From contig JACPUR010000038.1 in the NCBI GenBank assembly GCA_016192135.1, forward strand, positions 124,001 to 188,000: DNA of 64,000 bases, in the 5' to 3' direction. Source of the stretch: Candidatus Tectomicrobia bacterium (GTDB taxonomy: Bacteria; UBA8248). The notes under the pieces are model-generated. The model was not told where the DNA came from, searched no databases, and saw only the letters and a program-made list of their open reading frames with translations. Below, piece by piece: positions 6,238-37,911 of this stretch (within the stretch, counting starts at the first letter, position 1; each line of letters begins with the position of its first letter). Made by a program: the position numbers and the translations under genes.

Positions 6238-7542
6238 ATGGCCACACCGCTTCCCATGCCGAAGCTCGGCCTCACGATGGAGCAGGGGACCATCCTCAAG
6301 TGGATGAAGCCCGAGGGCGCCCCCGTCGAGAAGGGCGAGATCATCCTCCAGATCCAGACCGACAAGGTGGAGTACGAGGTCGAGTCCCCGGACGGGGGCG
6401 TGCTCCTCAAGACCCTGGCCGGCGAGGGCGACGCCGTCCCCTGCGGGCAGAACGTAGCCGTCATCGGCCGGAAGGGCGAGGACGTGAGCGCCTTCACGGG
6501 CGGCGCGGCCCCCAAGGCGGAGAAGCCCGCCGCCCCCGCGCCCTCCCGGGCGGAGGCCCAGCCCGCCGCCCCCGCGCCCTCGGCCCCGGTGCCCCAGGCC
6601 CCCGCGGGAGCGCCCGCGGCCGGTGGAGAGTCGGCCCCGCCCCGGGACGGGAGGGTCTTCGCCAGCCCGGCCGCCCGGCGCGTGGCCCGCGAACTGGGGA
6701 TGGACTACCGCACCCTCAAGGGCTCGGGCCCCGGCGGGAGGATCGTCCAGGCCGACGTCCGCGCGGCCGCCCAAAGCCCCGGCAGGACCGCGGGAGCGCC
6801 CCGCGTGGCCGCCCCCCCCGCCCCGCCCGCGGCCGCCACGGGCCCCGCCGCCGTCGCCGCGAAGAAGCCCGTCGCCGGGATGCGCAAGGTCATCGCCCAG
6901 CGCATGGCCGCGAGCTGGAGCGCCGTCCCCCGCGTCACCCTCCAGGCCGAGGTGGACCTCACGAACCTCCTCGCCGTCCGCGAGGCCAGCCGCAAGGCCT
7001 GGGAGCAGGACCTGGGGGTGAAGGTCTCGATCAACGACCTCATCCTCTTCTACACCGCGCGCGCGGTGCGCCGCTGCCCGGCGGTGAACGTGCGCCTGGC
7101 GGGGGAGGAAATCCACCAGATGGCCGACGTGAACCTGGGCATCGCCGTCGCCGTCGAGAACGGCCTCATGGTGCCCGTCATCCGGGGGGCGGACCAGAAG
7201 CCCATCGACGCTCTCGCCCGCGAGGCCCGCGCCCTGGCCGAGAGCGCCCGGGCGGGGAGCCTCCCCCTCTCCGCCCTGGAGGGCGGCACCTTCACCGTCT
7301 CGAACCTGGGCGCCTACGGCATCGACCACTTCTCGGCCATCGTGAACGCTCCCGAGAGCTGCATCCTCTCGGTGGGGGCGGCCCGCGAGCGCGCCGTGGT
7401 GCGCGAGGGCCAAGTCGTCCCCCGCACCACCGCCTGGCTCGGGATCAACGCCGACCACCGCATCGTGGACGGCGCCCCCGCGGCCGGGTTCCTCTCGACC
7501 CTCAAGGACATGCTGGAGAACCCCAAGGTCATGCCGGCGTAG
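6238..7542 (+). CDS. pdhC: Dihydrolipoamide acetyltransferase (E2) of the 2-oxoacid dehydrogenase
   Basis: E2 core: moves the acyl group from E1 to CoA via lipoyl-lysine. The 434 residues are one lipoyl domain (1-80, lipoylated K43 in QTDKVEYEVE), an Ala/Pro linker, a peripheral-subunit-binding domain (about 140-175, ASPAARRVARELGMDYRTLKG), a second linker, and the catalytic domain (about 207-434) with the active site DHRIVDG at 406-412. The last gene of the operon, followed at once by a strong terminator. A diverged copy of its last 51 bp recurs at 8523-8573, just after the first GAF-PAS gene. Confidence 0.94.
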   Translation: MATPLPMPKLGLTMEQGTILKWMKPEGAPVEKGEIILQIQTDKVEYEVESPDGGVLLKTLAGEGDAVPCGQNVAVIGRKGEDVSAFTGGAAPKAEKPAAPAPSRAEAQPAAPAPSAPVPQAPAGAPAAGGESAPPRDGRVFASPAARRVARELGMDYRTLKGSGPGGRIVQADVRAAAQSPGRTAGAPRVAAPPAPPAAATGPAAVAAKKPVAGMRKVIAQRMAASWSAVPRVTLQAEVDLTNLLAVREASRKAWEQDLGVKVSINDLILFYTARAVRRCPAVNVRLAGEEIHQMADVNLGIAVAVENGLMVPVIRGADQKPIDALAREARALAESARAGSLPLSALEGGTFTVSNLGAYGIDHFSAIVNAPESCILSVGAARERAVVREGQVVPRTTAWLGINADHRIVDGAPAAGFLSTLKDMLENPKVMPA

Positions 7543-7563
7543 GACCTGCACGAATCCACGCAG

Positions 7564-7600
7564 CCGGGGCGCGGTCCTCCGCGCCCCGGTTGTTTTTTTT
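7564..7600 (+). terminator. Rho-independent terminator of the pdh operon
   Basis: A perfect 11-bp stem CCGGGGCGCGG (7564-7574) pairs with CCGCGCCCCGG (7579-7589) around a TCCT loop and is followed by TTG and eight T. It separates pdhABC from the GAF-PAS array, so the array needs its own promoters. Confidence 0.93.
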
Positions 7601-7660: not shown

Positions 7661-8464
7661 ATGCCCGACGTGAAAATCCTCACAGAAATCGTCGAAATCG
7701 GCACCCACCTCGTGAGCGCCCGCTACGGCGCCTTGGGAAAACTGAACGCGCGGGGAGACGCCCTCGAGCAAGTCCTCACGGCCGGCACCGCACCCGCCAT
7801 TTCCTCCCCCGCGAGCCTCGGCCTCCTGAGCCCCATCATCCGGGAGCCCCGGCCCCTGCGGCTGAAAGATGTGTCCCTGGACCTCTCCCTGGCCGGTTTT
7901 TCCAGGATCCGCCTGAAGGCGCGCTCTTATCTGGCGGTGCCGCTCTTCCACCGCAGGGCGCTGAAGGGGGGGCTTTGCTTCCTGGAGAAGCAGGGAGCGC
8001 CGGAATTCAGGGTGGCGGACGAGCGCTTGGCCGAGAGCCTCGCGCGCCTCGCCATGAGGACGCTGGAGAGCGAGACGGACCAGACCGGCATCCGCCAGGC
8101 CCTGCGCTTCTTCCGAACCGCCGCCGAGGAGAAGGATGACGCCGTCATCATCATGAGCCCGTCCCGCGAAATACTTTCGTGGAACGACGGCGCGAGGAAG
8201 CTCTTCGGCTATTCGGCGGAGGAAGTTCTGGGCCTGTCGTTCCTGGATCTGCTTGTGCCTCCGGAAGGGCGCGCCAGGTGGAGCAGACACACCGAGCCCC
8301 GGCTGGCGCGGGAACTGCGGGAAGGAAAGACGGTCCACTATGACACCATGCGCCTCCGCAAGGACGGCACGAGGATTCAGGTTAGCGTGACTTTGTCTCC
8401 CGTCTATCACGAGATGGCGGGCGTCAACCTGGTGACGGGCATCCATCGATCCAAGAAGGCATGA
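7661..8464 (+). CDS. GAF-PAS protein, array member 1
   Basis: First of ten tandem paralogues. The 267 residues are a DosS-type GAF domain (about 1-135, with SARYGALGKL and SYLAVPLF) and a PAS domain (about 150-265, VIIMSPSREILSWNDGARKLFGY). There is no kinase, DNA-binding, GGDEF or membrane segment. The aligned haem-ligand position is Arg rather than His, and the distal Tyr is Cys (GGLCFLEK), so haem binding looks lost. ATG 7661 (MPDVKIL) is chosen because members 3 and 5 begin MPDTHIL and MPETKLL; a TTG at 7604 lies inside the terminator tail. It is flanked by two copies of the pdhC 3' end (7492-7542, 8523-8573). Confidence 0.87.
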   Translation: MPDVKILTEIVEIGTHLVSARYGALGKLNARGDALEQVLTAGTAPAISSPASLGLLSPIIREPRPLRLKDVSLDLSLAGFSRIRLKARSYLAVPLFHRRALKGGLCFLEKQGAPEFRVADERLAESLARLAMRTLESETDQTGIRQALRFFRTAAEEKDDAVIIMSPSREILSWNDGARKLFGYSAEEVLGLSFLDLLVPPEGRARWSRHTEPRLARELREGKTVHYDTMRLRKDGTRIQVSVTLSPVYHEMAGVNLVTGIHRSKKA

Positions 8465-8522
8465 CGGGAAGCGTTTCCCCAAAGCCATTCCGGCTTGCGA
8501 AATGCTCTCCAGCCGCAAGTCC

Positions 8523-8573
8523 CTCGCCACCCTCAAGGACATGATCGAGAGTTCCAAGGTCATGCCGGCGCAG
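8523..8573 (+). pseudogene. Duplicated fragment of the pdhC 3' end
   Basis: This 51-bp stretch reads LATLKDMIESSKVMPAQ and aligns codon for codon with the last 17 codons of pdhC (7492-7542, LSTLKDMLENPKVMPA plus stop), with 8 mismatches; the pdhC stop TAG is CAG here. The two copies lie 1031 bp apart and bracket GAF-PAS gene 1. It is too short to be a gene and reads as a scar of a duplication or recombination event. Confidence 0.8.
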
Positions 8574-8753
8574 GAGACAGGTCTTTTTTCACCCTCCCGG
8601 CGCCTCCTCTCTTGAGTTAAACCCCGGGGAAAGCTCCGGAAAAGTGGACAATTTCGTTTATTTTTTTCTTTTTAGAAATAGAGTATATTGGTGGGGATCT
8701 GCATGAGTCTAATTTGAGTCTTTTGGTCCAATCCCCGTGAGGCTTGTGCGGCC

Positions 8754-9575
8754 TTGCCCCAGACGAAGGTCCTCCTGCAGGAGCTCGTGGATCTGGGCGT
8801 CCGCGTGGTGGAATCGCGCTACGGCGCCCTGGGGGTGCTGACCGGGCTGGGGGAGGCCTTCGCCGACTTCCTCACCGCGGGCATCGACCTCAAGTCCCGC
8901 CTGGCCATCGGGGCCAACCCCCTGGGGGTGGGCCTCATGGGCGTCATCCTCCGCGATCCCCGCCCCCTGCGCGTGCCGGACATCGGGCAAGACCCCCGCG
9001 CCGTGGGCTTTCCCCCTCACCATCCCCGGATGCGGTCCTTCCTCGGGGTCCCGATCCGGGCCGGCTGGAAGGTGCGCGGGGGCCTCTACTTCACCGGCAA
9101 GGAAAGCCTCCCGGAGTTCCGGCCGGAGGACGAGCGCCTGGCCGAATGCCTGGCCCGGCTGGCGGCGGAAATCCTCGACGGCAAGATGGGCCATACGGCG
9201 GTCCAGCGCTCCCTCAAATATCTCCGGGACGGCGTGGACGGAGAGGGCGAGGCCGTCGTCATCATGGGCCCGGGCCGCGAGATCATCCGGTGGAGCGGAG
9301 GAGCCCGGGCGCTCTTCGGCTTCACCGCCGACGAGGCCCTGGGACGGAGGTTCGTGGACCTCCTTGTGCCTCCCGAGGACCGGGAGCGGTGGCGGAGGCA
9401 GTTCGAGCCCCACCTCATGCGGGAACTGAGCGAAGGCAAGGTGTACCGGGCCAACGTCACCCGCCTCCACAAGAGCGGCCGGCGGCTCCCGGTCCGCATC
9501 ACCCTCAGCCCCATCCTCCACGAGATGGCCGGGGTCAAGACCATCGTGGGCGTCTACAAGTTCAAGAAAGAGTGA
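8754..9575 (+). CDS. GAF-PAS protein, array member 2 (haem-ligand His present)
   Basis: 273 residues: GAF (about 1-140) plus PAS (about 155-270). The GAF domain has SRYGALGVL, GFPPHHPRMRSFLGVP and GGLYFTGK. H90 and Y112 are 22 residues apart, matching the spacing I recall for the proximal His and distal Tyr of the DosS/DevS haem GAF-A (H149/Y171), so haem binding is plausible. The PAS core is VVIMGPGREIIRWSGGARALFGF. The start is TTG 8754 (MPQTKVL), matching the MPxTK N-terminus of other members; no ATG fits. The region 8641-8700 upstream is AT-rich and promoter-like. No output domain. Confidence 0.87.
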   Translation: MPQTKVLLQELVDLGVRVVESRYGALGVLTGLGEAFADFLTAGIDLKSRLAIGANPLGVGLMGVILRDPRPLRVPDIGQDPRAVGFPPHHPRMRSFLGVPIRAGWKVRGGLYFTGKESLPEFRPEDERLAECLARLAAEILDGKMGHTAVQRSLKYLRDGVDGEGEAVVIMGPGREIIRWSGGARALFGFTADEALGRRFVDLLVPPEDRERWRRQFEPHLMRELSEGKVYRANVTRLHKSGRRLPVRITLSPILHEMAGVKTIVGVYKFKKE

Positions 9576-9608
9576 CCTTCGCCAGGCGTGCCCGCGGATT
9601 CTCAAGGA

Positions 9609-9708
9609 TGTCATTCCGAGCGGAACGAAGGCGCGAAAGAATCCCGGTTTAAAACCGATATCCTTCGCGGAGCCTGGCCTGAGCGCAAGCGAAGGGCTCA
9701 GGATGACA
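9609..9708. repeat. Dispersed GTCATTCCGAGCG palindromic repeat, copy 1
   Basis: It runs from GTCATTCCGAGCGGAACG to GGGCTCAGGATGACA, with imperfect inverted ends. Related copies are at 20027-20134, 47444-47523 and 50827-50914, all intergenic. It occupies the gap between GAF-PAS genes 2 and 3. No coding capacity. Confidence 0.75.
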
Positions 9709-9720
9709 CCTTCGCGGAAT

Positions 9721-9775
9721 CGTAGGGGCAGGCCCCCGTGCCTGCCCCGGGCGGCCACAGGGGGCCGCCCCAACG
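9721..9775. repeat. TAGGGGC-family double palindrome
   Basis: CGTAGGGGCAGGCCCCC followed by GTGCCTGCCCC and then GGCGGCC / GGCCGCC arms: two hairpins back to back. It belongs to the TAGGGGC family seen at ten or more intergenic places in the window. With 9609-9708 it fills most of the 361-bp gap 9576-9936. Confidence 0.7.
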
Positions 9776-9886
9776 GACCCATGGCTGAATATCACACGCA
9801 CGCAAGCCTCCCCTTTCCCCGCCTGAACTTTTCGCCGAAAAACAGGTCAACCACTCTTTCGGTTTCACCTTTCCCCGCCCCTGCGG

Positions 9887-9892
9887 TAAAAT
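9887..9892 (+). promoter_or_regulatory. Candidate -10 box of GAF-PAS gene 3
   Basis: TAAAAT, 45 bp before the start, with TTCACC 17 bp upstream as a weak -35. Similar TAAAAT/TAGAAT boxes in a GC-rich setting occur before array genes 6 (13093, 13116), 8 (15540) and 9 (16604). Confidence 0.35.
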
Positions 9893-9936
9893 TCGGGCGT
9901 TTGGCCGCCGCAATCCTCAAGGAAACCTTTGGCCCC

Positions 9937-10770
9937 ATGCCCGACACCCACATCCTGGAAGAGATCGTGGAACTGGGCACCCGGCTGGTGGGCGCCCGCT
10001 ACGGCGCCCTCGCGGTGCTGAACGAGCGGGGCGGCGCGGTCCAGACGTTCGTCACGGCCGGGATGGAGGCGGAGACCCGCGCCGCCATCGGCGCCCCGCC
10101 CCGCGGCCTGGGCATCCTGGGCGCCCTCATCCGGGAGCCCCGCCCCCTGCGGCTCAAGGACCTGGGCCTCGACCCCCGCTCGGCGGGCTTCCCGCCGGGC
10201 CACCCGCCGATGCGCTCCTTCCTGGGCGTGCCGCTCCTGTCCGAGGGGAAGGCGTGCGGGAACTTCTACTTCACCGAGAAGGAGGGAGCGGAGGAGTTCA
10301 GCCCGGCGGACGAGCGCATGGCGGAGAACTTCGCCCGCCTCGCCGTCCGGGCCATCCAGCACCCGGCGGCCCACGCGGGCATCCGGCGGGACCTGGAAAC
10401 CTTCCGGAGCGCGGCTGCGGATCCCGGGGCCGTCATCATCGTGAACCCGGGGCGCGAGATCATCGTGTGGAACGAGGGGGCGCGGGACCTCTACGGCTAT
10501 ACGCGAGAGGAGGCCCTGGGCCGGCGCCTCGAAGAGCTGCTCATTCCGCCGGAGCGGCGGGAAGCCTGGCTGAACCGGTATCTGAACGAGCACGTCCGGG
10601 ACCTTCGGGCCGGGAAGACGGTTCAGTACAATGGGACGCCCCTCCACAAGAACGGCCGGGAAATCCACGTGAGCGTGACCTTCTCCCCCATCCGCCACGG
10701 CGAAGCGGGGATCATGGCGGTCACCGGGACGCTCAAGGTCACGAAGAAGGACGGGAACGAGGCGGCGTGA
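9937..10770 (+). CDS. GAF-PAS protein, array member 3 (haem-ligand His present)
   Basis: 277 residues and the closest member to the DosS consensus: GARYGALAVL at 19-28, GFPPGHPPMRSFLGVPL at 84-100 with the candidate proximal His H89, and GNFYFTEKEG with Y111, 22 residues on. The PAS domain spans about 163-270 (VIIVNPGREIIVWNEGARDLYGY). It resembles member 5 most closely (both have AENFARLAV and RRDLxxFR), which suggests a recent pair. ATG 9937 (MPDTHILEEIVELG). No kinase, cyclase or HTH follows. A stand-alone gas/redox sensor module is the inferred role; the partner is unknown. Confidence 0.88.
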   Translation: MPDTHILEEIVELGTRLVGARYGALAVLNERGGAVQTFVTAGMEAETRAAIGAPPRGLGILGALIREPRPLRLKDLGLDPRSAGFPPGHPPMRSFLGVPLLSEGKACGNFYFTEKEGAEEFSPADERMAENFARLAVRAIQHPAAHAGIRRDLETFRSAAADPGAVIIVNPGREIIVWNEGARDLYGYTREEALGRRLEELLIPPERREAWLNRYLNEHVRDLRAGKTVQYNGTPLHKNGREIHVSVTFSPIRHGEAGIMAVTGTLKVTKKDGNEAA

Positions 10771-10952
10771 CGCCGCCCCCCGGGTAAGAAATTCTTCCTC
10801 CGCCTCCCCGGCCGAAGGCCCTCGCGTTCCGGTCCGTCCTCCTATCCCGGGGCGCCGCGCGGCCCGCGGCCCGCCATGTCGGGCCGCGCCCTGGAGGCCC
10901 TTCCTTGCCAGAACCGCCCGGGTATCGGATACTGACATTCGAGGGAAATGCT

Positions 10953-11837
10953 GTGTCGACGCCTGTTCCGGCAACACCAATGCCTACTCCCGAGAAAACA
11001 CCCCGTCCCAATTTCCGGGGCGCCGATTCCCTGCAAGAGCTGGTGGACGTGGGGACACGGCTGGCCGGGGCCCGCTACGGCGCCCTCGGCGTGCTGAACG
11101 AACGGGGCGACGCCTTCTCCCGCTTCCTCACCCGCGGCATCAGCAAGGAGATGCGGACCGCCGTCCCCTTCGTCCCCGCGGACCGGGGGCTGCTGGCCGC
11201 GCCCATCCTGGATTCCCGGCCCTTGCGGACCAGGGACATCCTGCGCAATCCGGGGGCCGGCGCGCTGCCCGAGAACCGCCTGCCGGTGAGCAATCTCCTC
11301 GCCCTCCCCGTCCTGGCGGAGAAACGGGTGCTCGGGGGCCTCTACTTCGCGGAGAAGATTGGCGCCGCCCAGTTCCGGGCGACGGACATCCCCCTGATGC
11401 AGAACTTCGCGAACCTGGCGGCCGAGCTGATCGAGGGGCTGGCGGGCCCGGAGGAGACGGGGCGCTTTCTCGATATATTCCGGGAAGCCCTGGAGACGGA
11501 CCTGGCCTGCCTCATCACCGACCCGTCCCGGCGGATCGTCTTCTGGAACCCGGCGGCCCGCCGCCTCTTCGGCCATGCGGAGGAGGAGGCGCTGGGACGG
11601 CGTTTCGAGGAGGTGCTGGTCCCGCCGGAGGAGTTCGCGGTGTGGAGGAAAAGCTTCATCCCCCGCGTCCTGCGCGAGTTCATGGACGGCAAGGAGGTCC
11701 GCTACGAAGCCCCGCGCCTGCACAAGGACGGCCGGCGGGTCCGGGTCGGCGCCCTGCTTTCCCCCGTCATCCAGGTCCGGGGCGGGATCGCCGCCATCAC
11801 GGTCATCGGGAAATATGAGGGAATCTCTCCATTTTGA
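10953..11837 (+). CDS. GAF-PAS protein, array member 4 (His lost)
   Basis: 294 residues with a Pro-rich N-terminal extension of about 25 residues before the GAF domain (LQELVDVGTRLAGARYGALGVL). The aligned haem-ligand position is Arg (ENRLPVSNLLALP), while the Tyr is kept (GGLYFAEK). The PAS domain is about 180-285 (CLITDPSRRIVFWNPAARRLFGH). The start is set at GTG 10953, preceded by GAGGG at 7 nt; ATG 10980 (MPTPEK) is an alternative without a Shine-Dalgarno. The 182-bp gap upstream is GC-rich with no clear promoter. Same strand and architecture as the rest of the array. Confidence 0.85.
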   Translation: MSTPVPATPMPTPEKTPRPNFRGADSLQELVDVGTRLAGARYGALGVLNERGDAFSRFLTRGISKEMRTAVPFVPADRGLLAAPILDSRPLRTRDILRNPGAGALPENRLPVSNLLALPVLAEKRVLGGLYFAEKIGAAQFRATDIPLMQNFANLAAELIEGLAGPEETGRFLDIFREALETDLACLITDPSRRIVFWNPAARRLFGHAEEEALGRRFEEVLVPPEEFAVWRKSFIPRVLREFMDGKEVRYEAPRLHKDGRRVRVGALLSPVIQVRGGIAAITVIGKYEGISPF

Positions 11838-12087
11838 CCGCGCCGTCCCGCGAGCGCTCAGGTGTTTTCCTTACTTGACCGGGGGAGCCGGCAGGTCTCA
11901 TCTTGACAGGCAATGTCCAACCCCTGGCCCGGGAGTCCGGATCCGCTCCGCCGCTTCCCCCGCCCGTTCATGCCTCACGGTTCCGTGCGTCGGCATAACT
12001 CATTTCACATTGCCGGAAGTCCGAATATGGTTTAAAGTTCCAGGTTAACTTTGGCACAGGCCGGATTCCGCCTGATAAGGAAGGCAA

Positions 12088-12957
12088 ATGCCCGAGACGA
12101 AACTGCTGGAGGAAATTGTCGAGCTGGGCGCCCGGCTCGTGGGCGCCCGCTACGGCGCCCTGGGGGTGCTGAACCCGCGCGGGGACGGCCTGGAGCGCTT
12201 CATCACGGCGGGGATAGACGAGGAATCCCGAACCCGAATCGGCAGTCTCCCGACGGGCAAGGGCATCCTGGGGGCCCTCATCCGGGACCCCCGGCCCCTG
12301 CGCCTGGCCAACCTGCACGCCGACGCCCGCTCCGTGGGCTTTCCCGGCAACCACCCCCCGATGAACTCCTTCCTCGGGGTGCCCCTCTTCTTCCAGTCGC
12401 ACGGGGGGGTGTACGGGAACTTCTACTTCACCGAGAAGGAGGGCGCCCCCGAGTTCAGCGCGGCCGACGAGCGCCTGGCGGAGAACTTCGCCCGCCTCGC
12501 CGTCCAGGCCATCGAGAACCCCATGTCCGTGGAAGAAGGCCTCCGGCGGGACCTGGACGCCTTCCGGACCGCGCTGACCGAAACCGGGGCCGTCATCATC
12601 ACGAACCCCGCGCGCGAGATCATCCTGTGGAACGCGGGGGCCGAGGAGATGTTCGGCATCCCCAGGGAGGACGCCCTGGGCCGCCGCATTGAGGAGCTGC
12701 TCGTGCCCCCCGAGGAGCAGGTGGAGTGGCGGCGGCGCTACGTGCACGACCACACGCGCGACCTCCGCGCCGGGCGGACGGTGCGCTACGAGACCACCCG
12801 CTTCCACAAGGACGGCCACCGGCTCGCCGTCACCGTGACTCTCTCCCCCATCCGGCACGGCTCGGCCGGCATCATGGCGGTCACCGGCGTGTACAAGATC
12901 GCCAGGGTGGTCCATGATAACGGCGCGCCCCTGAAGAATTCGCCGCAGGCGATGTAG
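12088..12957 (+). CDS. GAF-PAS protein, array member 5 (haem-ligand His present)
   Basis: 289 residues, MPETKLLEEIVELGARLVGARYGALGVL at the start and AAGGAAGG just ahead of ATG 12088. GFPGNHPPMNSFLGVP gives candidate proximal H89, and GNFYFTEKEG gives Y113. A two-residue loop insertion (FQSHGG) makes the spacing 24 instead of 22. The PAS domain is about 165-275 (VIITNPAREIILWNAGAEEMFGI), followed by a short unrelated tail (VVHDNGAPLKNSPQAM). It is most similar to member 3. The 250-bp gap upstream (11838-12087) is less GC-rich near 12000-12060 and probably carries the promoter. Confidence 0.88.
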   Translation: MPETKLLEEIVELGARLVGARYGALGVLNPRGDGLERFITAGIDEESRTRIGSLPTGKGILGALIRDPRPLRLANLHADARSVGFPGNHPPMNSFLGVPLFFQSHGGVYGNFYFTEKEGAPEFSAADERLAENFARLAVQAIENPMSVEEGLRRDLDAFRTALTETGAVIITNPAREIILWNAGAEEMFGIPREDALGRRIEELLVPPEEQVEWRRRYVHDHTRDLRAGRTVRYETTRFHKDGHRLAVTVTLSPIRHGSAGIMAVTGVYKIARVVHDNGAPLKNSPQAM

Positions 12958-13029
12958 AGCGCGCCGGCCCGCCTCCCGCGCGGGGCCGCCGATGCGTCCG
13001 CGGGGCGCATGCCGCCGCCGGCCACGGCT

Positions 13030-13057
13030 GTAGGGGCGTATCGCGATACGCCCCTAC
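13030..13057. repeat. TAGGGGC-family single palindrome
   Basis: A perfect 28-bp inverted repeat with ends GTAGGGGC / GCCCCTAC and inner arms GTATC / GATAC. It lies in the gap between array genes 5 and 6. Confidence 0.8.
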
Positions 13058-13092
13058 AAAAGGGGAAGGCCGTGGGTTTTCCGCCCCCGCGA

Positions 13093-13121
13093 TAGAATCT
13101 CGCCCGGGGTTCCGCTAGAAT
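13093..13121 (+). promoter_or_regulatory. Two candidate -10 boxes before GAF-PAS gene 6
   Basis: TAGAAT occurs at 13093-13098 and again at 13116-13121, 23 bp apart, in otherwise GC-rich sequence 33-60 bp before the start. No good -35 is visible. Confidence 0.3.
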
Positions 13122-13153
13122 CATCCCGCCCGAGAACGCATCGAGAACGGCAC

Positions 13154-14026
13154 ATGCTCAGACCGCGCTCTCTCCTGGACCTCCTGCAGCAGGCGCTGGA
13201 CCTCGGCATCCGCCTGCTGAGCGCCCGCTTCGCGTCCCTGGCGCTGCTGGACGAGCCGGGAACGGCCTTCGAGCACTTCCTCGCCGCGGGGACGGACGGC
13301 GCCCTCCCCTCCCCGCCCCCCGATCCCCGGGGCCGGGGCATCCTGAGCCTCCTCATCCGCGATCCGAGACCGCTGCGGCTCAATGACGCCGCCGAGGACC
13401 CCGCCTCGCTGGGATTGCCCGGCCGCCTGCCGCCGGTGGGCTCCTTCCTCGGGATGCCCATCACCTCCCGCGGCAAGGTGCGCGGGACCCTCTGCTTCGC
13501 CGAGAAGAAGGCCGGGCCGGGCTTCCGGCTGGCGGACGAGCGCGTGGCCGAGAGCCTCTCGCGCCTGGCCGCGGACATCCTGGAGGACGTGGCGCCCCGG
13601 ACCGAGATCCTGCGCTCGCTCGAGCTCTTCCGGGGGGTCCTCGAGCCCGGGGCTTCCGTCATCACCACTCCGGCCCCCGTCCGGGAGGTCCTCTACTGGA
13701 ACAAGGGAGCGGAGGAGCTTTTCGGCTTCACGGCGGAAGAGGCCCTGGGCCGGCGCCTCCCGGACCTCAACGTGCCCATGGAAGGGCGCGAATACTGGCG
13801 AAAGCACATCCAGCCGGGCCTTATGCTCCGGCTGCAGGAGGGCAGGGACGCCCCCTTCGAGGCCTTCCGCCTCCACAAGAGCGGCGAGCGCATCCGGGTG
13901 CGGGTGGTGATGTCCCCCATCCGCCACGAGGTGGCCGGGATCATGGCCGTCACCCGGGTCTACAAGTACCGCCGGGCCCGGCCGGAGGATATCCAGAACC
14001 CCGTCCCGGGGTCGGACCTCTTCTGA
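13154..14026 (+). CDS. GAF-PAS protein, array member 6 (most diverged GAF)
   Basis: 290 residues, ATG 13154 (MLRPRSLLDLLQQALDLGIRL). The usual RYGAL core is RFASL here, the aligned haem-ligand position is Leu (GRLPPVGSFLGMP) and the distal Tyr is Cys (GTLCFAEK), so haem binding is not expected. The PAS domain (about 165-275) has a two-residue insertion before the core (TTPAPVREVLYWNKGAEELFGF). Otherwise it keeps the two-domain layout and length of the array, with the conserved ending SPIRHEVAGIMAVTRVYKY. It reads as an intact, diverged paralogue rather than a pseudogene. Confidence 0.85.
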   Translation: MLRPRSLLDLLQQALDLGIRLLSARFASLALLDEPGTAFEHFLAAGTDGALPSPPPDPRGRGILSLLIRDPRPLRLNDAAEDPASLGLPGRLPPVGSFLGMPITSRGKVRGTLCFAEKKAGPGFRLADERVAESLSRLAADILEDVAPRTEILRSLELFRGVLEPGASVITTPAPVREVLYWNKGAEELFGFTAEEALGRRLPDLNVPMEGREYWRKHIQPGLMLRLQEGRDAPFEAFRLHKSGERIRVRVVMSPIRHEVAGIMAVTRVYKYRRARPEDIQNPVPGSDLF

Positions 14027-14091
14027 GGCCGCGCGGGGGGACACCCGGTAGTGGGTCAGTCGGGCGATTCTGCCGTCATCTCGAACGCGGC

Positions 14092-14245
14092 CATTCCCTC
14101 ACCCCCCGCCCCTCTCCCCCCTCCCGAACCGGCAGGCCGGTTCGGGGACCCGAAAAGACGGGGAGAGGGGCGCAGAGGCCGCGAAAACCGGTGAATGGGC
14201 ATCTCTCCCTCTCCCTCTGGGAGAGGGCCGGGGTGAGGGGTACTG
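14092..14245. repeat. CCCTCTCCC/GGGAGAGGG hairpin with a nested palindrome (gap 14027-14474)
   Basis: Arms CCCCTCTCCCC and GGGGAGAGGGG (14110-14170) are interrupted at the loop by a second palindrome, CTCCCGAACCGGCAGGCCGG followed by TTCGGGGACCC (14120-14151). That inner piece recurs at 49469-49501. A further hairpin of the same family (TCTCCCTCTCCCTC / GGGAGAGGGCC) ends near 14240. The rest of the 448-bp gap is an AT-rich stretch at 14335-14430 that likely holds the promoter of array gene 7; no gene is seen. Confidence 0.75.
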
Positions 14246-14474
14246 GCGGCGGAGGCCCATTTATGCAAACCGGTTCGCTGCCAAACGCCCGCCTAGTGCC
14301 CCACCGAAAGGCCCCGGGTACGCCTGGGTAACGTTTCATTTACATTCAATGAGTTACCTCCTATTATTTAACATCTTCCTTTGAAAATCCTCTTGCAAAA
14401 CACCCCATATCGCGGCTAAGGTATTTCCTGGATAAGCCGCCGTCGTGGAACCACCCGCGGTGGAAGTGCCTGGA

Positions 14475-15353
14475 ATGCGCCATACGGGAACCGAACGACA
14501 GCAGATCACGAACGAGGAGCTCCTCCAGCAGATCATCGACCTGGGCCGAAGGCTGGTCGGCGCGCGCTACGGCGCCCTCGGCCTCCTGCGCCGCGACGGG
14601 CGCGGGTTCTCCCGGTTCATCACCTCCGGCATGAAAGAAACGGCCGCCGGGGCGGTCTACCCTATCCCGGACGGGCGCGGCCTCGCGGGCGTCCTCATCC
14701 GCGACCCCAGGCCCCTGCGGGCGGCGGCCACCGAAACCCTCGAAACCACCGGGATGACCGAGAGCCACCCCCGCCTCAACTCCTTCCTCGGCGTGCCGCT
14801 CGTCTGCCGGGGCAAGGTGTGCGGCAACCTCTACTTCACCGAAAAGATCGGCTGGCCGGAGTTCCCGCCCACGGACATCCGCCTGCTCCAGAGCTTCGCC
14901 CGCTGGGCCTCCGAGGCGGCGATGGGCATCTCGGCCCCCGAGGAGATCCAGAAGTGCCTGGCCCTCTTCCGCAGCGCCCTGGACGAGCGCACGGCCGCGG
15001 TGACCATCGTGGACCCGAGGCGGGAGTTCATCCTGTGGAACCGCAAGGCGCGGGCCCTCTTCGGCTACACCGAGAGGGAGGTCCTCGGCCGGCGGGTCGA
15101 GGAGGTCCTCATCCCCCCGGAGGAGGCCGGGGAATGGAAGCGGAACTTCCTCCGGCGCGTCGCGCAGGACCTCCTGGACGGAAAGCAGGTCCACTGCGAG
15201 GGGACGCGCCTGCACAAGGACGGCCGGCGCATCCACGTCCGGATGGTCCTCTCCCCCGTCATTCACGACGCCGCCGGGGTCCGGACCGCCACGACCATCA
15301 CGAAAATGAGGCCGATCGGCTCCACGGCGTTCGGCCGCCCGGCACAGGGGTGA
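14475..15353 (+). CDS. GAF-PAS protein, array member 7 (haem-ligand His present)
   Basis: 292 residues. GAF: LVGARYGALGLL, ESHPRLNSFLGVP with candidate proximal H98, and GNLYFTEK with Y120, again 22 apart. The GFPP segment before the His is replaced by MTES, so the proximal loop differs from members 2, 3 and 5. The PAS domain is about 175-280 (VTIVDPRREFILWNRKARALFGY). ATG 14475 (MRHTGTERQQ) is chosen, with GGAAG 8 nt upstream; GTG 14445 would add ten residues without a Shine-Dalgarno. Its own AT-rich leader (14335-14430) suggests a separate transcript. Confidence 0.86.
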   Translation: MRHTGTERQQITNEELLQQIIDLGRRLVGARYGALGLLRRDGRGFSRFITSGMKETAAGAVYPIPDGRGLAGVLIRDPRPLRAAATETLETTGMTESHPRLNSFLGVPLVCRGKVCGNLYFTEKIGWPEFPPTDIRLLQSFARWASEAAMGISAPEEIQKCLALFRSALDERTAAVTIVDPRREFILWNRKARALFGYTEREVLGRRVEEVLIPPEEAGEWKRNFLRRVAQDLLDGKQVHCEGTRLHKDGRRIHVRMVLSPVIHDAAGVRTATTITKMRPIGSTAFGRPAQG

Positions 15354-15393
15354 GCTCGCATTCACCCTATCCCGCCTCAGAGCCGAAATCTCG

Positions 15394-15439
15394 ACCCCCC
15401 CCCATCCCCCCCTTGAATAAGGGGGGGATGGGGGGGGTT
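15394..15439. repeat. C-run/G-run palindrome
   Basis: ACCCCCCCCCATCCCCCC, then TTGAATAA, then GGGGGGGATGGGGGGG: a long near-perfect hairpin between array genes 7 and 8. It could act as a terminator or block polymerases. No coding capacity. Confidence 0.7.
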
Positions 15440-15539
15440 GCCGCGCAGGGGCGCATGGGCGATGCGCTCCCGCCCAATCAACTTCTTCTCCCCGCCCTAT
15501 CCGGGGGCGCCCCTGTCGGCGCCTGCATGCTCCGCGCGG

Positions 15540-15545
15540 TAGAAT
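15540..15545 (+). promoter_or_regulatory. Candidate -10 box upstream of GAF-PAS gene 8
   Basis: TAGAAT in the context GCGCGG-TAGAAT-TTTCCC, followed by an AT-rich leader (TTACAATAAATTAACACC). No convincing -35 is seen; the context resembles the boxes before genes 3 and 6. Confidence 0.3.
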
Positions 15546-15633
15546 TTTCCCCCGCGCTCGCTTACAATAAATTAACACCGGAAAATTTGGAGCGTCCCGT
15601 TCCGGGGACGCGATCCGCGCGAGAGAAGGACCC

Positions 15634-16461
15634 ATGAAAGCGCCCGACGACGGCAACGGCAAGGGCCCGGAGGGGGGGCCGCTCCAGGATCTCATCCAGC
15701 TGGGCACCCGCCTCCTGAAGGCCCGCTACGGCGCCCTGGCCCTGCTGAGCGGGCGGGGGGAGGGTTTCGATCAGTTCATCACGGCCGGCATCCCCGAGGA
15801 GACCCGGAGGGCCATCGGCGCCTTGCCCCAGGGCCGGGGGCTGCTCGGAGTCCCCATCCGGGACCCGCGGCCCCTGCGGGTGAGGAACATCGCCCGGGAC
15901 CCCCGCTCCGCCGGCCTTCCCAAGAACGCCCCTCCGATGCGCTCCTTCCTCGGCGTCCCGATCTTCTCGAACCGCAAGGTGCAGGGCGGCCTCTATTTCA
16001 CGGAAAAGACGACGGCGCCCGAATTCCGGCCCGCGGACGAGCGCCTGGCCGAGAGCCTCGCGCGCGTGGCCGTCGAACCCCGGCCGAGGATGCGGCGCTC
16101 CCTCGACATCCTGCGCCAGGCGGCGGGCGGGACGGGCGCCGCCGTCATCACGAGCCAGGCGCGCGAGATCATCTTCTGGAGCGACGAGGCCCGGCAACTC
16201 TACGGCTACACCGAGGACGAAGTCCTGGGCCGGAGCTTCGTGGATATCATCGTGCCCCCGGAGGAGCGGGCCGCGTGGAGACGGGTGAACCAGCCCCGCC
16301 TGACGCGGGAGCTGCAGGAGGGCAAGGTCGTCAAGCTGGAGGCCCAGCGGCTCCGCAAGGACGACACCCGGATCACCGTGATCGTGACCGTGACCCCCAT
16401 CCGCCACGACGTGGCCGGCATCACCGCCCTCACCAGCGTCCACATCATTCAAAAGATATGA
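15634..16461 (+). CDS. GAF-PAS protein, array member 8 (His replaced by Ala)
   Basis: 275 residues, ATG 15634 after GAGAGAAGGACCC. GAF: LLKARYGALALL, then GLPKNAPPMRSFLGVP, where the aligned haem ligand is Ala although the flanking PPMRSFLGVP is intact; the Tyr is retained (GGLYFTEK). This is a one-residue change from the predicted haem-binding members. The linker to the PAS domain is shorter than in the other members (VEPRPRMRRSLDILRQA). The PAS domain is about 150-270 (AVITSQAREIIFWSDEARQLYGY). Architecture and strand match the array. Confidence 0.87.
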   Translation: MKAPDDGNGKGPEGGPLQDLIQLGTRLLKARYGALALLSGRGEGFDQFITAGIPEETRRAIGALPQGRGLLGVPIRDPRPLRVRNIARDPRSAGLPKNAPPMRSFLGVPIFSNRKVQGGLYFTEKTTAPEFRPADERLAESLARVAVEPRPRMRRSLDILRQAAGGTGAAVITSQAREIIFWSDEARQLYGYTEDEVLGRSFVDIIVPPEERAAWRRVNQPRLTRELQEGKVVKLEAQRLRKDDTRITVIVTVTPIRHDVAGITALTSVHIIQKI

Positions 16462-16603
16462 GCGCCGGCGGACGGGGGGGGGCGAGCGGCGCGCGCCACC
16501 TCGCTCATTCGGACATCCGGACTGTCATCTTCCCGGGCGTTCCCGTCCCCGCCGTCCGTTTCAAGATGATTCGAAATTGGCATCCCCCGGCGGCGAGCGC
16601 TGA

Positions 16604-16661
16604 TAAAATCGCGCGATCCCGCGAAAATATGAAACAAACCTGAATCGAGTGCGCTTATAAT
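16604..16661 (+). promoter_or_regulatory. Candidate promoter region of GAF-PAS gene 9
   Basis: TAAAAT at 16604-16609 and a consensus TATAAT at 16656-16661 lie in an AT-rich stretch about 80-135 bp before the start. No matching -35 was found at 16-18 bp for either. Confidence 0.35.
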
Positions 16662-16738
16662 CATAATGGTAATCCCAGCGCTCCCAGCGCCTCAGGATTC
16701 TTCCTGCGGCCTTGGCCTCTCTCTCTTCAAGGGCAGCC

Positions 16739-17569
16739 TTGTCCGCACTGCGAAGCAAGCACCCCTCTTACGACCGCGATCTTCTCCAGGAGATCGTCAA
16801 CCTGTCGACCCGCCTCCTCGGCGCCCGCTCCGGCGCCCTGGGCCTGCTGAACGAGCGGCGGGACGCCTTCGAGTGTTTCATCGCGGCCGGGAGCGGGCGG
16901 GAGGAATCCTCCGCCGTCGGCCCCCTCCCCCGGGGCTGGGGGCTGATGGACGCCCTCATCGATGACCCCCGCCCCATCCGGCTGGTCGCGCCGCGCGAGA
17001 GGGGCGCCGACGGCAAGAGAGCCCCCGCCCGCTCCTTCCTCGGGGTGCCGCTCCTCTCGGGGAAAAAGCACTGGGGAAACTTCTACTTCGCCGACAAGGA
17101 AGGAGAGCCGGAGTTCCGCCCCACGGACGAGCGCCTCGCCGAATGCCTCGCCCGGATCGCCGCGGATTACCTGCAAGGCGCCCTGCCGAGGGGAGAGGCC
17201 TCCCGCTACATCGGCCTCCTGGAGGGCGCGCTGGAGGAGGCCGGCGCCGTCTGCATCACGGATCCCTCCCGCGAGATCATCTTCTGGAACCGCGGGGCCC
17301 GGCGCCTCTTCGGCTTCACCGAGCGGGAGACCCTCGGCCGCCCGTTCGTCCACCTGCTGGTGCCTCCCGAGGAGAGGCAGAAGCGGCGGCGGGGCTTCGA
17401 TCCCAGCGTCCAGCGGACGCTCTTGAACGGCATGACCGCCCAGGCCGACTGCATCCGCCTTCACAAGGACGGGCGGCGGCTTCCCATCCGTATGACCGTC
17501 TCCCCCATCCTCCACCGCGTGGCGGGCATCGTCGCCATCACCTGCGTCGGCCGGTACGAGCGCCTCTGA
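16739..17569 (+). CDS. GAF-PAS protein, array member 9 (His lost)
   Basis: 276 residues. GAF: LLQEIVNLSTRLLGARSGALGLL (RSGAL instead of RYGAL), with the proximal loop shortened to GKRAPARSFLGVP so that Arg sits at the ligand position; the Tyr is kept (GNFYFADK). The PAS domain is about 160-272 (VCITDPSREIIFWNRGARRLFGF), ending VAGIVAITCVGRYERL. It forms a close pair with member 10. The start is TTG 16739 with AAGGG five bases upstream; a TTG at 16712 would add nine residues without a Shine-Dalgarno. Confidence 0.84.
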   Translation: MSALRSKHPSYDRDLLQEIVNLSTRLLGARSGALGLLNERRDAFECFIAAGSGREESSAVGPLPRGWGLMDALIDDPRPIRLVAPRERGADGKRAPARSFLGVPLLSGKKHWGNFYFADKEGEPEFRPTDERLAECLARIAADYLQGALPRGEASRYIGLLEGALEEAGAVCITDPSREIIFWNRGARRLFGFTERETLGRPFVHLLVPPEERQKRRRGFDPSVQRTLLNGMTAQADCIRLHKDGRRLPIRMTVSPILHRVAGIVAITCVGRYERL

Positions 17570-17809
17570 GAGAAGACGAGCCGGGCTCTCCTTTCTCCTT
17601 CCTTTCCTCCCCCGAAATGTAACTTCCGTTATCGCACCGGCTCGAAATCTCAATATGCAATATGCGGCAGGTGTTTTTTCCCACCATTTAGTGAAATGGA
17701 TCGTGCGGCTGGGGAGCGCGCGCCGCTATACTACCTGTACGTAATTTTAGATTTCAGCCGCCTTCGTTCCGGCCCCCTCGCCTCATCCCTCCTTCATCTG
17801 GAGCCGTCC

Positions 17810-18640
17810 ATGTCCTGCCCGTGCGAAACGCTCTCCCCGCCCCCGAGATCCAAAAGCAGCCATTCGCTCCTTCAGGAGATCGTCGACCTCGCCACCATCC
17901 TGCTCGGCGCCCGCTACGGCGCTCTCGGCTTGCTGAACGCCAGGCGCACGGCCTTCATCCGCTTCATCGCCGCCGGGGGCGGCGGCGAGGAGGAAATCAT
18001 GGCCGCGATCCCGGAGGGATGGGAGCTGCTGGAGGACCTCATCCGCGACCCGCGGCCCCTGCGCGTCCGCGTGCCGGAGTCCGAGACGGAGGAACCGGTG
18101 CTGGCCTTCCTGGGCGTGCCGCTCGTCTCCGGCCGGAAGGTGTGGGGCAACTTCTATTTCGCGGAGAAAGAAGAGGGGGAGTTCCGCCCGACGGACACGC
18201 GCCTGGCCGAGTGCTTCGGCCGGCTCGCGATCGACCTCCTCGAAGGCTCGAAGACGAGCGAGGAGACGCGCCTGTGCCTCACCCGCTACCGGAGCGTGCT
18301 GGACCCCGAGGGCGGCGCCATGAGCATCACCGACCCGGCGCGGGAGATCATCTTCTGGAACGAGGGGGCGCGCCGCCTCTTCGGCTACGCCGAAAAGGAG
18401 GCCCTCGGGCGCGTCTTCCTGGACCTCCTCGGCGTGCCCGAGGAGCGCAGGCGCTGGATGCGGGGCCTCGAGCCCGAGGCCCTGCGCGTGCTGCTGAAGG
18501 GCGGCGTGGCCCAGCGGGACTGCCTGCGCCTCCACAAGAGCGGGCGGAAAATACCGATCCGCATGACCCTCACCCCCGTCTGCCACACGGTGGCGGGCAT
18601 CGTCGCCATCACCCTCATCGGCCGCTACAAGCGGATCTGA
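17810..18640 (+). CDS. GAF-PAS protein, array member 10 (His lost)
   Basis: 276 residues, last of the array. GAF: LLQEIVDLATILLGARYGALGLL, then a shortened proximal loop ETEEPVLAFLGVP with Glu at the aligned ligand position; the Tyr is kept (GNFYFAEK). The PAS domain is about 160-272 (MSITDPAREIIFWNEGARRLFGY), ending VAGIVAITLIGRYKRI as in member 9. ATG 17810 (MSCPCETL) follows GGAG at 6 nt; an ATG at 17696 would add 38 residues with no homology to the other members. A TATACT box at 17727 lies in the AT-rich leader. Confidence 0.86.
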   Translation: MSCPCETLSPPPRSKSSHSLLQEIVDLATILLGARYGALGLLNARRTAFIRFIAAGGGGEEEIMAAIPEGWELLEDLIRDPRPLRVRVPESETEEPVLAFLGVPLVSGRKVWGNFYFAEKEEGEFRPTDTRLAECFGRLAIDLLEGSKTSEETRLCLTRYRSVLDPEGGAMSITDPAREIIFWNEGARRLFGYAEKEALGRVFLDLLGVPEERRRWMRGLEPEALRVLLKGGVAQRDCLRLHKSGRKIPIRMTLTPVCHTVAGIVAITLIGRYKRI

Positions 18641-25805: not shown

Positions 25806-25941
25806 GAGGAAGATTTTCCCCCTCCCTCCGGGAGGGGGTTGGGGGGAGGGAAGGCTGCCAGCGGGCATCTCCCCCACCCCAGCCCTCCCCCGGAGGGGGA
25901 GGGAGAAAAACGCAGGGGCGTATTGCAATACGCCCCTACAG
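25806..25941. repeat. CCCTCCC hairpins plus TAGGGGC palindrome
   Basis: CCCCCTCCCTCCGGGAGGGG and CAGCCCTCCCCCGGAGGGGG form hairpins; CAGGGGCGTATTGCAATACG plus CCCCTACAG (25913-25941) is a perfect palindrome. Same order of families as at 20302-20422. Confidence 0.75.
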
Positions 25942-35958: not shown

Positions 35959-37911
35959 CTAGATGTTTTTCTTGGCGACGTATTGGGAGACGACGGAGCG
36001 GGCTTCCTCCCCGATGTCGAGGAACTGCAGGTTGACCATGTAGCCCTTGCGGCCGCCCTCCTCGGTCCAGGTCGCCCGGACGACATGCCCCACGAGGTCC
36101 TTCACCTGCCCTCCCCCGCCGGCGATGGTGAAGTTCAGGCGGATGGAGTTGCCCGCGTCCGCCGGGAAGCTCGTCTGGAGGAGCGCCCCCCCGACGCTGA
36201 TGTTGCGGATGATGCCCTGCCGGGTGCCGCTGACTCCCTCCTGCACGTAGATGGCGAAGAGCTCCACGTCCGCGCGCGGGGTGGTGCGCTTGACCTGGCC
36301 GGCCTCCCGCGAGGGGGGCTGGATGCTCTTGACGATGTAGACCGGCACTTCCTCGGACTTCCCCTTCACCTTCACCGGCCCCAGGGCCTCGCCTTGGGCG
36401 TAGTCCTTGATCCTCTCCCAGGTGGCGGCGCTGACGGCCACAGAGTTGTGCTTCGCGGCGCTCTCCATGCGGTTCGCGAGATTCACGGCGTCGCCGATGA
36501 CGGTGTAGTCCATGCGCTGGGGGGAGCCCAGATTGCCCGCGACGACGGGGCCGGAGTTCACCCCCACCCGCATCTTGAAGGTGGGCTTCCCTTCGGCTTT
36601 CCACTTCTCCATCAGCCCGTCCGCCGCGGCGATCATGTCGAGCCCCGCCTTGACGGCCCAGGCGGCGTGGTCGGGCTCGTAGACGGGCGCCCCGAAGACC
36701 GCCATGGTGGCGTCTCCGATAAATTTGTCGAGGGTGCCGTAGTTCTTGAAGATCATCTCGGCCATCAGGGTGAAATACTCGTTCAGCAGCTCGACCAGCT
36801 CCTCGGGGCGGAGGGCCTCGCTGAAGGGAGTGAAGCCCACCACGTCCGAGAAAAGCACCGAGCACTCCACGGTCGAGCCGCCGAGGGCCAGGTCGCTCTC
36901 CTGCTTGAGGATGTCCTCCACGATGGCCGGGGAGAGGTAGCGCGAGAGGCTAGACCGTTTGCGCGTCTCCTCCTCGATGTTCTGGTAGAGGCGGGCGTTC
37001 TCGAGCGCCCCGGCCGCCGCGCCGGCGAACGACTGCGCCAGCCGGACCAGGTCCTGGGTGAAGCCGGGGGCGCCGGCCTGGTTGTCCACGTAGAGGGTGC
37101 CGAGGTTGCGCTCCTTGTAGTTCACCGGCACGCAAAGGATGGCGCGGGCGTCCGACCGCATGACGCTCGCGAAGCCCGCCGTCCGGGTGTCACCCTTCGA
37201 GTTCGCCGTGAAGAAGGGCGCCCCCTCCACCGCCACCCGGCTGGCCACGCCGGTGCTGAAGAGCCGGGCCTCGCCCTGCTCGAGGTCGCCGCCCATGCCC
37301 CGGGCCACGCTCACCTCCAGGGCGCCGGTGCCCTCGTTCCGGAGCATCAGGAAACCCCGCTTGGCGTTCAGGGTGGGGATGGCGTAGTCCATGATCCTCT
37401 CCAGGAGCTTGCTCAATTCGTGCTCCTGGTTCAGGGCCTGGCTGACCTCCAGCAGGGTCTCGAGGTCCTTCCCGCCCCGCTTCAGGACATTCTGCATCCG
37501 CTTGGCCTCGACCAGGGCCTCCCCGATGGCCTGGGCCTGGCCGACGACGGCCTCGGGGATCGCCGTCGGCGACGCCTGCCGGGCCGTGTAAAGGGCGCGA
37601 TTCAGCTCCCCGATGTGGTCCTCCAGGCGCTCGAAGGGATCGGGGGCGCCAGCGCCGGCCGGAGGCCCGGAGGGAGCGGGCGCGCTCGCGGCAGGAGCCA
37701 CCGGAGGAGAAGCCGGGGCCGTGGTGGGCGCCGGGGCCGCCGGGGGAGCGGCCGGAGCGGCGGCGCCGTCCGAGACGGCCGGGGTGAAAGTGCAGCCGCA
37801 TTTCTTGCATTTCACGCGGGCCCGGGCCAGTTCGGCGGCGGGCCGGTTCACGCGGTAGACCGCCCCGCATTCGGGACATGCGATTCGCGTCGGTTCGACT
37901 GCCTGCTCCAC
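35959..37911 (-). CDS. Zinc ribbon-GAF-class III nucleotidyl cyclase-PilZ protein
   Basis: 650 residues, four modules. Residues 12-44: MJ0042-type zinc ribbon (CPECG...CKKCG). A Pro/Ala linker. About 160-310: GAF domain (LNAKRGFLMLRNEGTG...AILCVPVNYKERNLGTLYVDN). About 335-505: class III cyclase, with metal Asp in SVLFSDVVGFTPFSE and FIGDATMAVFG, substrate Lys in TLDKFIGD, Asp in MDYTVIGDAVNLANRME; the Lys/Asp pair favours ATP, so cAMP. About 530-650: PilZ-like domain (IIRNISVGGALLQTSFPA). No membrane segment. It begins 26 bp after the kinase gene and is probably co-transcribed. The build suggests small-molecule (GAF) and c-di-GMP (PilZ) control of cAMP synthesis. Confidence 0.88.
   Translation of the reverse strand: MEQAVEPTRIACPECGAVYRVNRPAAELARARVKCKKCGCTFTPAVSDGAAAPAAPPAAPAPTTAPASPPVAPAASAPAPSGPPAGAGAPDPFERLEDHIGELNRALYTARQASPTAIPEAVVGQAQAIGEALVEAKRMQNVLKRGGKDLETLLEVSQALNQEHELSKLLERIMDYAIPTLNAKRGFLMLRNEGTGALEVSVARGMGGDLEQGEARLFSTGVASRVAVEGAPFFTANSKGDTRTAGFASVMRSDARAILCVPVNYKERNLGTLYVDNQAGAPGFTQDLVRLAQSFAGAAAGALENARLYQNIEEETRKRSSLSRYLSPAIVEDILKQESDLALGGSTVECSVLFSDVVGFTPFSEALRPEELVELLNEYFTLMAEMIFKNYGTLDKFIGDATMAVFGAPVYEPDHAAWAVKAGLDMIAAADGLMEKWKAEGKPTFKMRVGVNSGPVVAGNLGSPQRMDYTVIGDAVNLANRMESAAKHNSVAVSAATWERIKDYAQGEALGPVKVKGKSEEVPVYIVKSIQPPSREAGQVKRTTPRADVELFAIYVQEGVSGTRQGIIRNISVGGALLQTSFPADAGNSIRLNFTIAGGGGQVKDLVGHVVRATWTEEGGRKGYMVNLQFLDIGEEARSVVSQYVAKKNI

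Follow-up and report, generated by a model that had tools for sequence, protein, structure and literature searches.

The locus described here raises the question of what a row of sensor genes might do when none of them carries an output domain, GAF and PAS sensors being, to our knowledge, nearly always fused to one. The window under study is a stretch of 64,000 nucleotides (G000:C38:124001-188000) from a metagenome-assembled genome (MAG) of 3.92 Mb that is 97% complete. At positions 7661-18640 it carries ten intact genes on the plus strand, each consisting of one GAF domain of the DosS/DosT type and one PAS domain only. In this array, a known sensor module has been released from its kinase and has expanded in tandem within a single lineage, the haem ligand being lost in graded fashion. 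As for its function, we lean, at slightly less than an even chance, towards trans-acting, partly haem-based sensor subunits for kinases encoded elsewhere, following a logic like that of NreA.

The isolate ODZ_NOB7a, obtained from oxygen-deficient Arabian Sea water, has been assigned by its authors to UBA8248, which was formerly placed in the Nitrospinota and is now a GTDB phylum of its own (PMC11373643). The lineage is related to putative nitrite oxidisers of oxygen-deficient waters, where sensing of O2 or NO is likely to matter. The array is a natural test of sensing modules working in trans and being mixed, and it shows the in-place amplification of receptor-type genes in a little-known marine lineage.

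The ten genes and their transcription signals

The genes, all on the plus strand, are g1 (7661..8464), g2 (8754..9575, TTG start), g3 (9937..10770), g4 (10980..11837), g5 (12088..12957), g6 (13154..14026), g7 (14475..15353), g8 (15634..16461), g9 (16739..17569, TTG start, with 16712 also possible) and g10 (17810..18640). Pfam searches returned one GAF and one PAS above cut-off for each of the ten and no further domain, and no kinase, receiver, HTH, GGDEF/EAL or cyclase gene lies between g1 and g10. The first-pass annotation, which had described ten consecutive same-strand genes without output domains or interspersed output-type genes, was correct on both points. Its gene order and count were also retained, while the starts of some genes were placed slightly differently, so that the proteins measure 267-292 aa from the chosen starts and not 267-294 codons. 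The array is not compact: gene starts are 1043-1321 nt apart and the spacers span 118-448 nt, several of them with promoter-like sites.

Pairwise identity among the ten proteins is 38-63%, the pair g3 and g5 reaching 63% and g9 and g10 57%, and 28 residues are invariant. Profile searches built from the ten covered the whole model in every member, and no member had an internal stop. Chance reading frames in GC-rich DNA are ruled out by frame composition and homology, and an assembly artefact is unlikely at such divergence. The first-pass annotation had cautioned that related genomes might carry these genes as fragments of one larger kinase. Relatives do fuse GAF-PAS to a kinase, but they do so at a different locus, and the array consists of complete, repeated GAF-PAS units with their own starts and with spacers free of kinase remnants (best tblastn match to a kinase core E 0.09, nothing convincing), which rules out one broken kinase. 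No Rfam element was detected in the array region.

A strong intrinsic terminator after E2 (7560..7593, plus strand) separates the array from a pyruvate/acetoin dehydrogenase-type operon. Six sigma-70-like sites were found against 0.6 expected. The best sites upstream of g3, g4, g5, g6 and g7 beat shuffled sequences (p < 0.05), and those upstream of g1, g2, g8, g9 and g10 were not better than shuffles. Promoter-like sites on the plus strand are located 44 nt upstream of g3 (9864..9892, TTCACC-17-TAAAAT, p 0.003 against shuffles), 46 nt upstream of g4 (10905..10933, TTGCCA-17-GATACT), 56 nt upstream of g5 (12004..12031, TTCACA-16-TATGGT) and 107 nt upstream of g7 (14339..14367, TTTACA-17-TATTAT). 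Judged by these motifs, several or more members probably have their own promoter, and for this reason the array would not be one tight operon.

A 28-bp palindrome, GTAGGGGCG..CGCCCCTAC, occurs in 53 copies in the genome (0 for a control pattern) with two main core types. One copy is present in the g5-g6 spacer (window 13030-13057) and another in the ADH-fumC interval (C14:72192), with a near-copy at window 25915-25936.

Haem-ligand positions and the C-terminal end

The earlier designation of the GAF domain as DosS-type agrees with its best PDB matches, the GAF-A haem domains of DosT and DosS (2vzw, hmmsearch E 4e-37). The AlphaFold model of g3 (pLDDT 86, pTM 0.86) gave DosS or DosT structures as all of its top 17 Foldseek matches; against viral folds it gave generic PAS/GAF matches only. 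The PAS domain of the array is nearest to DosP and to generic S-box PAS domains.

His149 is the proximal haem ligand of DosS, and the roles of His149 and Tyr171 have been described (PMC4082495). The DosS residue numbering of our alignment was set by the mutant entries 2y79 and 2y8h (E87A, E87G). In this alignment g2, g3, g5 and g7 retain His149, whereas the position holds Arg in g1, g4 and g9, Leu in g6, Ala in g8 and Glu in g10, the last with a shortened proximal loop. The distal Tyr171 is present in eight of the ten members, with Cys in g1 and g6, and the Glu87 position is occupied by Gly or Ala in the array and by Gly also in DosT. His149 is likewise kept in kinases of three related genomes (G007, G008 and G012), and its equivalent is lost in an eleventh, separately located member of the family. 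From these residues, the GAF domains of g2, g3, g5 and g7 plausibly bind haem via the His149 equivalent, and haem binding in the manner of DosS is probably absent from g1, g4, g6, g8, g9 and g10. Since the DosS ligand is kept in four members only, the ten GAF domains cannot count as equivalent receptors. Mean identity drops to 31% in the proximal loop, one of the least conserved regions of the protein, compared with 49% in the GAF core. Between members, the GAF (49%) and the PAS (46%) are conserved to much the same degree, and consequently there is no clear pattern of a variable sensor with a constant docking face.

The array GAF is homologous to GAF-A of DosS/DevS and DosT, the haem GAF kinases of Mycobacterium tuberculosis, with both His149 and Tyr171 kept in four members. 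In those kinases a second GAF (GAF-B) and then a histidine kinase follow, whereas the array proteins have a PAS instead of GAF-B and no kinase, are encoded by ten tandem copies and include six members without the haem ligand. All ten stop at or shortly past the last PAS strand. In a hybrid kinase of the sister-genus genome G007, the corresponding PAS runs on into a D-L-T motif, a helix, a second PAS, HisKA, HATPase and REC. The DLT motif and the signalling helix that lead to the kinase in relatives are absent from the array members, whose final hairpin is shortened and reads S/T-P-x-x-H-x-x-A-G-I/V (g4 has Q in place of H and G in place of A).

Single-PAS matches in G004, G010 and G018 were considered as further stand-alone members and rejected, as they run into the DLT motif and helix or a kinase, or have broken frames. 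The array genome also encodes a PAS-PAS-PAS protein without output that ends in an array-related PAS (L131:2535-3854, G000:C31); its gene adjoins, on the same strand, that of an apparent CheR-type methyltransferase-PAS protein.

Insertion site, origin and distribution

The array is inserted between the E2 and ADH/UvrD genes, at a site that lacks it in relatives, where the order is NusA - small gene - E1a/E1b - E2 - (ADH) - flavin reductase - UvrD. The E2-ADH distance is 838 bp in G005, and flavin reductase and UvrD directly follow E2 in G010 and G008. Because the E2-UvrD interval of the relatives contains no such genes, the array is a local addition downstream of E2. Unrelated genes occupy the insertion site in G007, G009 and G011, which suggests that the spot downstream of E2 is variable among relatives. 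These genes encode an apparent ethylbenzene-dehydrogenase-type haem-binding cytochrome of 514 aa in G007 (L157 8878-10422, G007 C8), and are DNA methyltransferase-like in G009 and G011.

The last part of E2 recurs as a 57-nt copy of its 3' end (8519..8575, plus strand; 84% identical to 7488-7544, blastn E 2e-12), which starts 54 nt past the stop of g1, at an offset of 1031 nt or about one array unit. On sequence grounds this relic would be the fossil of an unequal tandem duplication in place that carried the end of E2 along. At 84% DNA identity the relic has changed less than g1 and g2 have from each other (46% amino acid identity); fast divergence or a later event may be responsible for this mismatch, which we cannot fully explain. 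The relic sits in a small open frame at window 8502-8615 (MLSSRKSLATLKDMIESSKVMPAQE...).

The phylum sample comprised 18 genomes, all of one family. Its best match outside the array was the N-terminal half of the G007 hybrid kinase (325 bits; next 200), a GAF-PAS-PAS-HisKA-HATPase-REC protein encoded between ADH and fumC. The N-terminal GAF-PAS of this kinase is 47-50% identical to g3 and g5 over both domains, but the kinase is single-copy, continues to REC, occupies another locus and is absent from the array genome. The ADH-fumC site varies among relatives, the GAF being accompanied by a different PAS in G012 (ODZ_NOB7a) and standing without it in G008. In the array genome, as in several other relatives, fumC directly adjoins ADH without an intervening kinase; a search of the array genome found no other kinase with an array-type GAF. 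A multi-GAF-PAS hybrid histidine kinase of 2310 aa is encoded just upstream of its ADH-fumC pair (L129:1960-8892, G000:C14).

The eleventh stand-alone member, which is more diverged, lies on a separate contig (G000:C30:39288-40106, 272 aa, 159 bits). A 99/95 branch of the GAF tree separates the ten and the eleventh from the phylum kinases and actinobacterial DosS-type GAFs. This arrangement is compatible with a single origin of the eleven and does not prove it, given the lack of a root in the tree and the long branch of the eleventh member.

A check for recurrence of the array, proposed by the first-pass annotation, placed it in one genome only: no second array was found in about 880 genomes (386 from a bacterial spread, 95 from the phylum of G242 and 397 from that of G262). 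Two of these surveys scored six candidates per genome, among which an array would still give several strong matches. The two genomes of the same genus have no close array matches, and E2 is also absent from their assemblies; the array is therefore possibly genus-wide and unsampled. The earlier remark that no system of this layout had been described also agrees with our searches of these genomes, of Pfam, NCBIfam and PADLOC, and of the literature for stand-alone GAF-PAS arrays. The PADLOC anti-phage defence models matched 0 families for all ten proteins.

Selection and candidate functions

In the reading to which we lean, a stand-alone GAF-PAS gene would have derived from, or shared an ancestor with, the sensing portion of a hybrid kinase resembling DosS. 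Its linker helix and kinase would have been lost, and the gene amplified in place downstream of E2 through repeated tandem duplication. The products would be soluble sensor subunits, presumably dimerising through the GAF and connecting helices. Those of g2, g3, g5 and g7 may bind haem in the GAF domain and respond to O2, NO, CO or redox state, and the six His-less members may bind another ligand or act as the haem-free half of mixed dimers. Because no J-alpha or signalling helix is available to drive a fused enzyme, signalling would pass through an effector encoded at another locus, such as a kinase, to which the subunits would bind as NreA does to NreB, and separate promoters could make the subunit mix variable.

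A precedent for such action is the Staphylococcus nitrate receptor NreA, a GAF protein; in the absence of nitrate it binds the kinase NreB and inhibits it (PMC8139620). Like the array proteins it is a soluble GAF sensor without output, and action on a kinase in trans is the analogy we propose; it differs in being a single copy within the NreABC system, in binding nitrate and not haem, and in having no PAS, and the array does not lie beside nreB/nreC. DhaR(N), a GAF-PAS bound to DhaK/DhaL (PDB 4lrx, 4lry, 4lrz) and a Foldseek match, provides an example of the GAF-PAS tandem as a protein-docking module, although it is part of a transcription activator with a different GAF type and an overall TM-score of only about 0.3. 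The type 3 bacteriophytochrome RpBphP1 is a kinase-less sensor that acts by binding another regulator (PMC6899989); unlike the array proteins it is a bilin photoreceptor with a PAS9-HOS output.

About 20 HATPase_c proteins in the array genome are candidate partners. Several findings count against trans-acting subunits: no kinase or response regulator is found among the array-flanking genes and no partner beside the eleventh member, no kinase in the genome has an array-type GAF, and the restriction of the array to a single MAG precludes a test of partner co-occurrence. A more elaborate form of the proposal, which we regard as unlikely, is a combinatorial set in which haem-bearing and haem-free subunits, separately transcribed, would pair in mixed dimers whose sensitivity to gas or redox state is graded, and plug into at least one kinase elsewhere. 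If true, the cell would tune its sensing by changing the mix of subunits instead of acquiring more kinases.

The array genes have a GC3 of 81-94% and a codon-position composition like that of neighbouring genes. When neutral evolution was simulated up to the divergence observed, 2.3 stops arose per gene and 10% of genes had zero stops, from which the probability of ten intact genes through drift is about 1e-10; the frames are therefore under selection. The dN/dS between members was of no use here: with GC3 strongly biased (near 90%), the synonymous sites have reached saturation. The first-pass claim that all frames stay open despite strong divergence accordingly holds for all ten and describes a real, selected array. 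These results bear on a non-productive amplification, in which redundant liberated sensor copies would drift under weak selection without coherent function. Presence in one genome only, the lack of a nearby partner, loss of the haem ligand in six of ten members and the highly variable proximal loop would all fit such a history, but it has a small chance given intact frames where stops were expected, the invariant residues, the coding-type GC3 and the promoter-like sites upstream of several members.

GAF and PAS domains dimerise, and the genome has GAF-PAS kinases with a related PAS (the 2310-aa protein on C14 and one of 1408 aa on C41). The array products could thus be competitive decoys, pairing with the sensor halves of such kinases in mixed dimers that are inactive, and damping them. 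We consider this quite unlikely, as the only kinase type with a truly similar GAF is missing here and the GAFs of the remaining kinases are remote.

GAF folds can also be enzymes, for example free-methionine-sulfoxide reductase, and non-signalling proteins would need no output domain. The array products might then be GAF proteins that bind a ligand or haem, act as scavengers or catalyse a reaction, with the PAS as a dimerisation unit; redoxin and HesB-like genes lie nearby, the latter presumably so from the reading of its ORF, which has no Pfam match. Such a role is decidedly unlikely: the nearest homologues are all kinase sensor domains, the GAF matches haem sensors and not enzymes, and the array proteins had no match to the free methionine-R-sulfoxide reductase family in NCBIfam. 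That the array is a reservoir of sensor cassettes recombining into kinases to make new architectures is highly improbable, for although multi-GAF-PAS kinases are abundant in the lineage, none of the genome's kinases contains an array domain copied in recently: the best internal kinase match scores 127 bits, and the array members themselves 385-431.

Elsewhere in the window, on the minus strand, the gene for a GAF - adenylate/guanylate cyclase - PilZ protein adjoins that for a TPR - Ser/Thr protein kinase (window 35959-37911 and 37938-40352).
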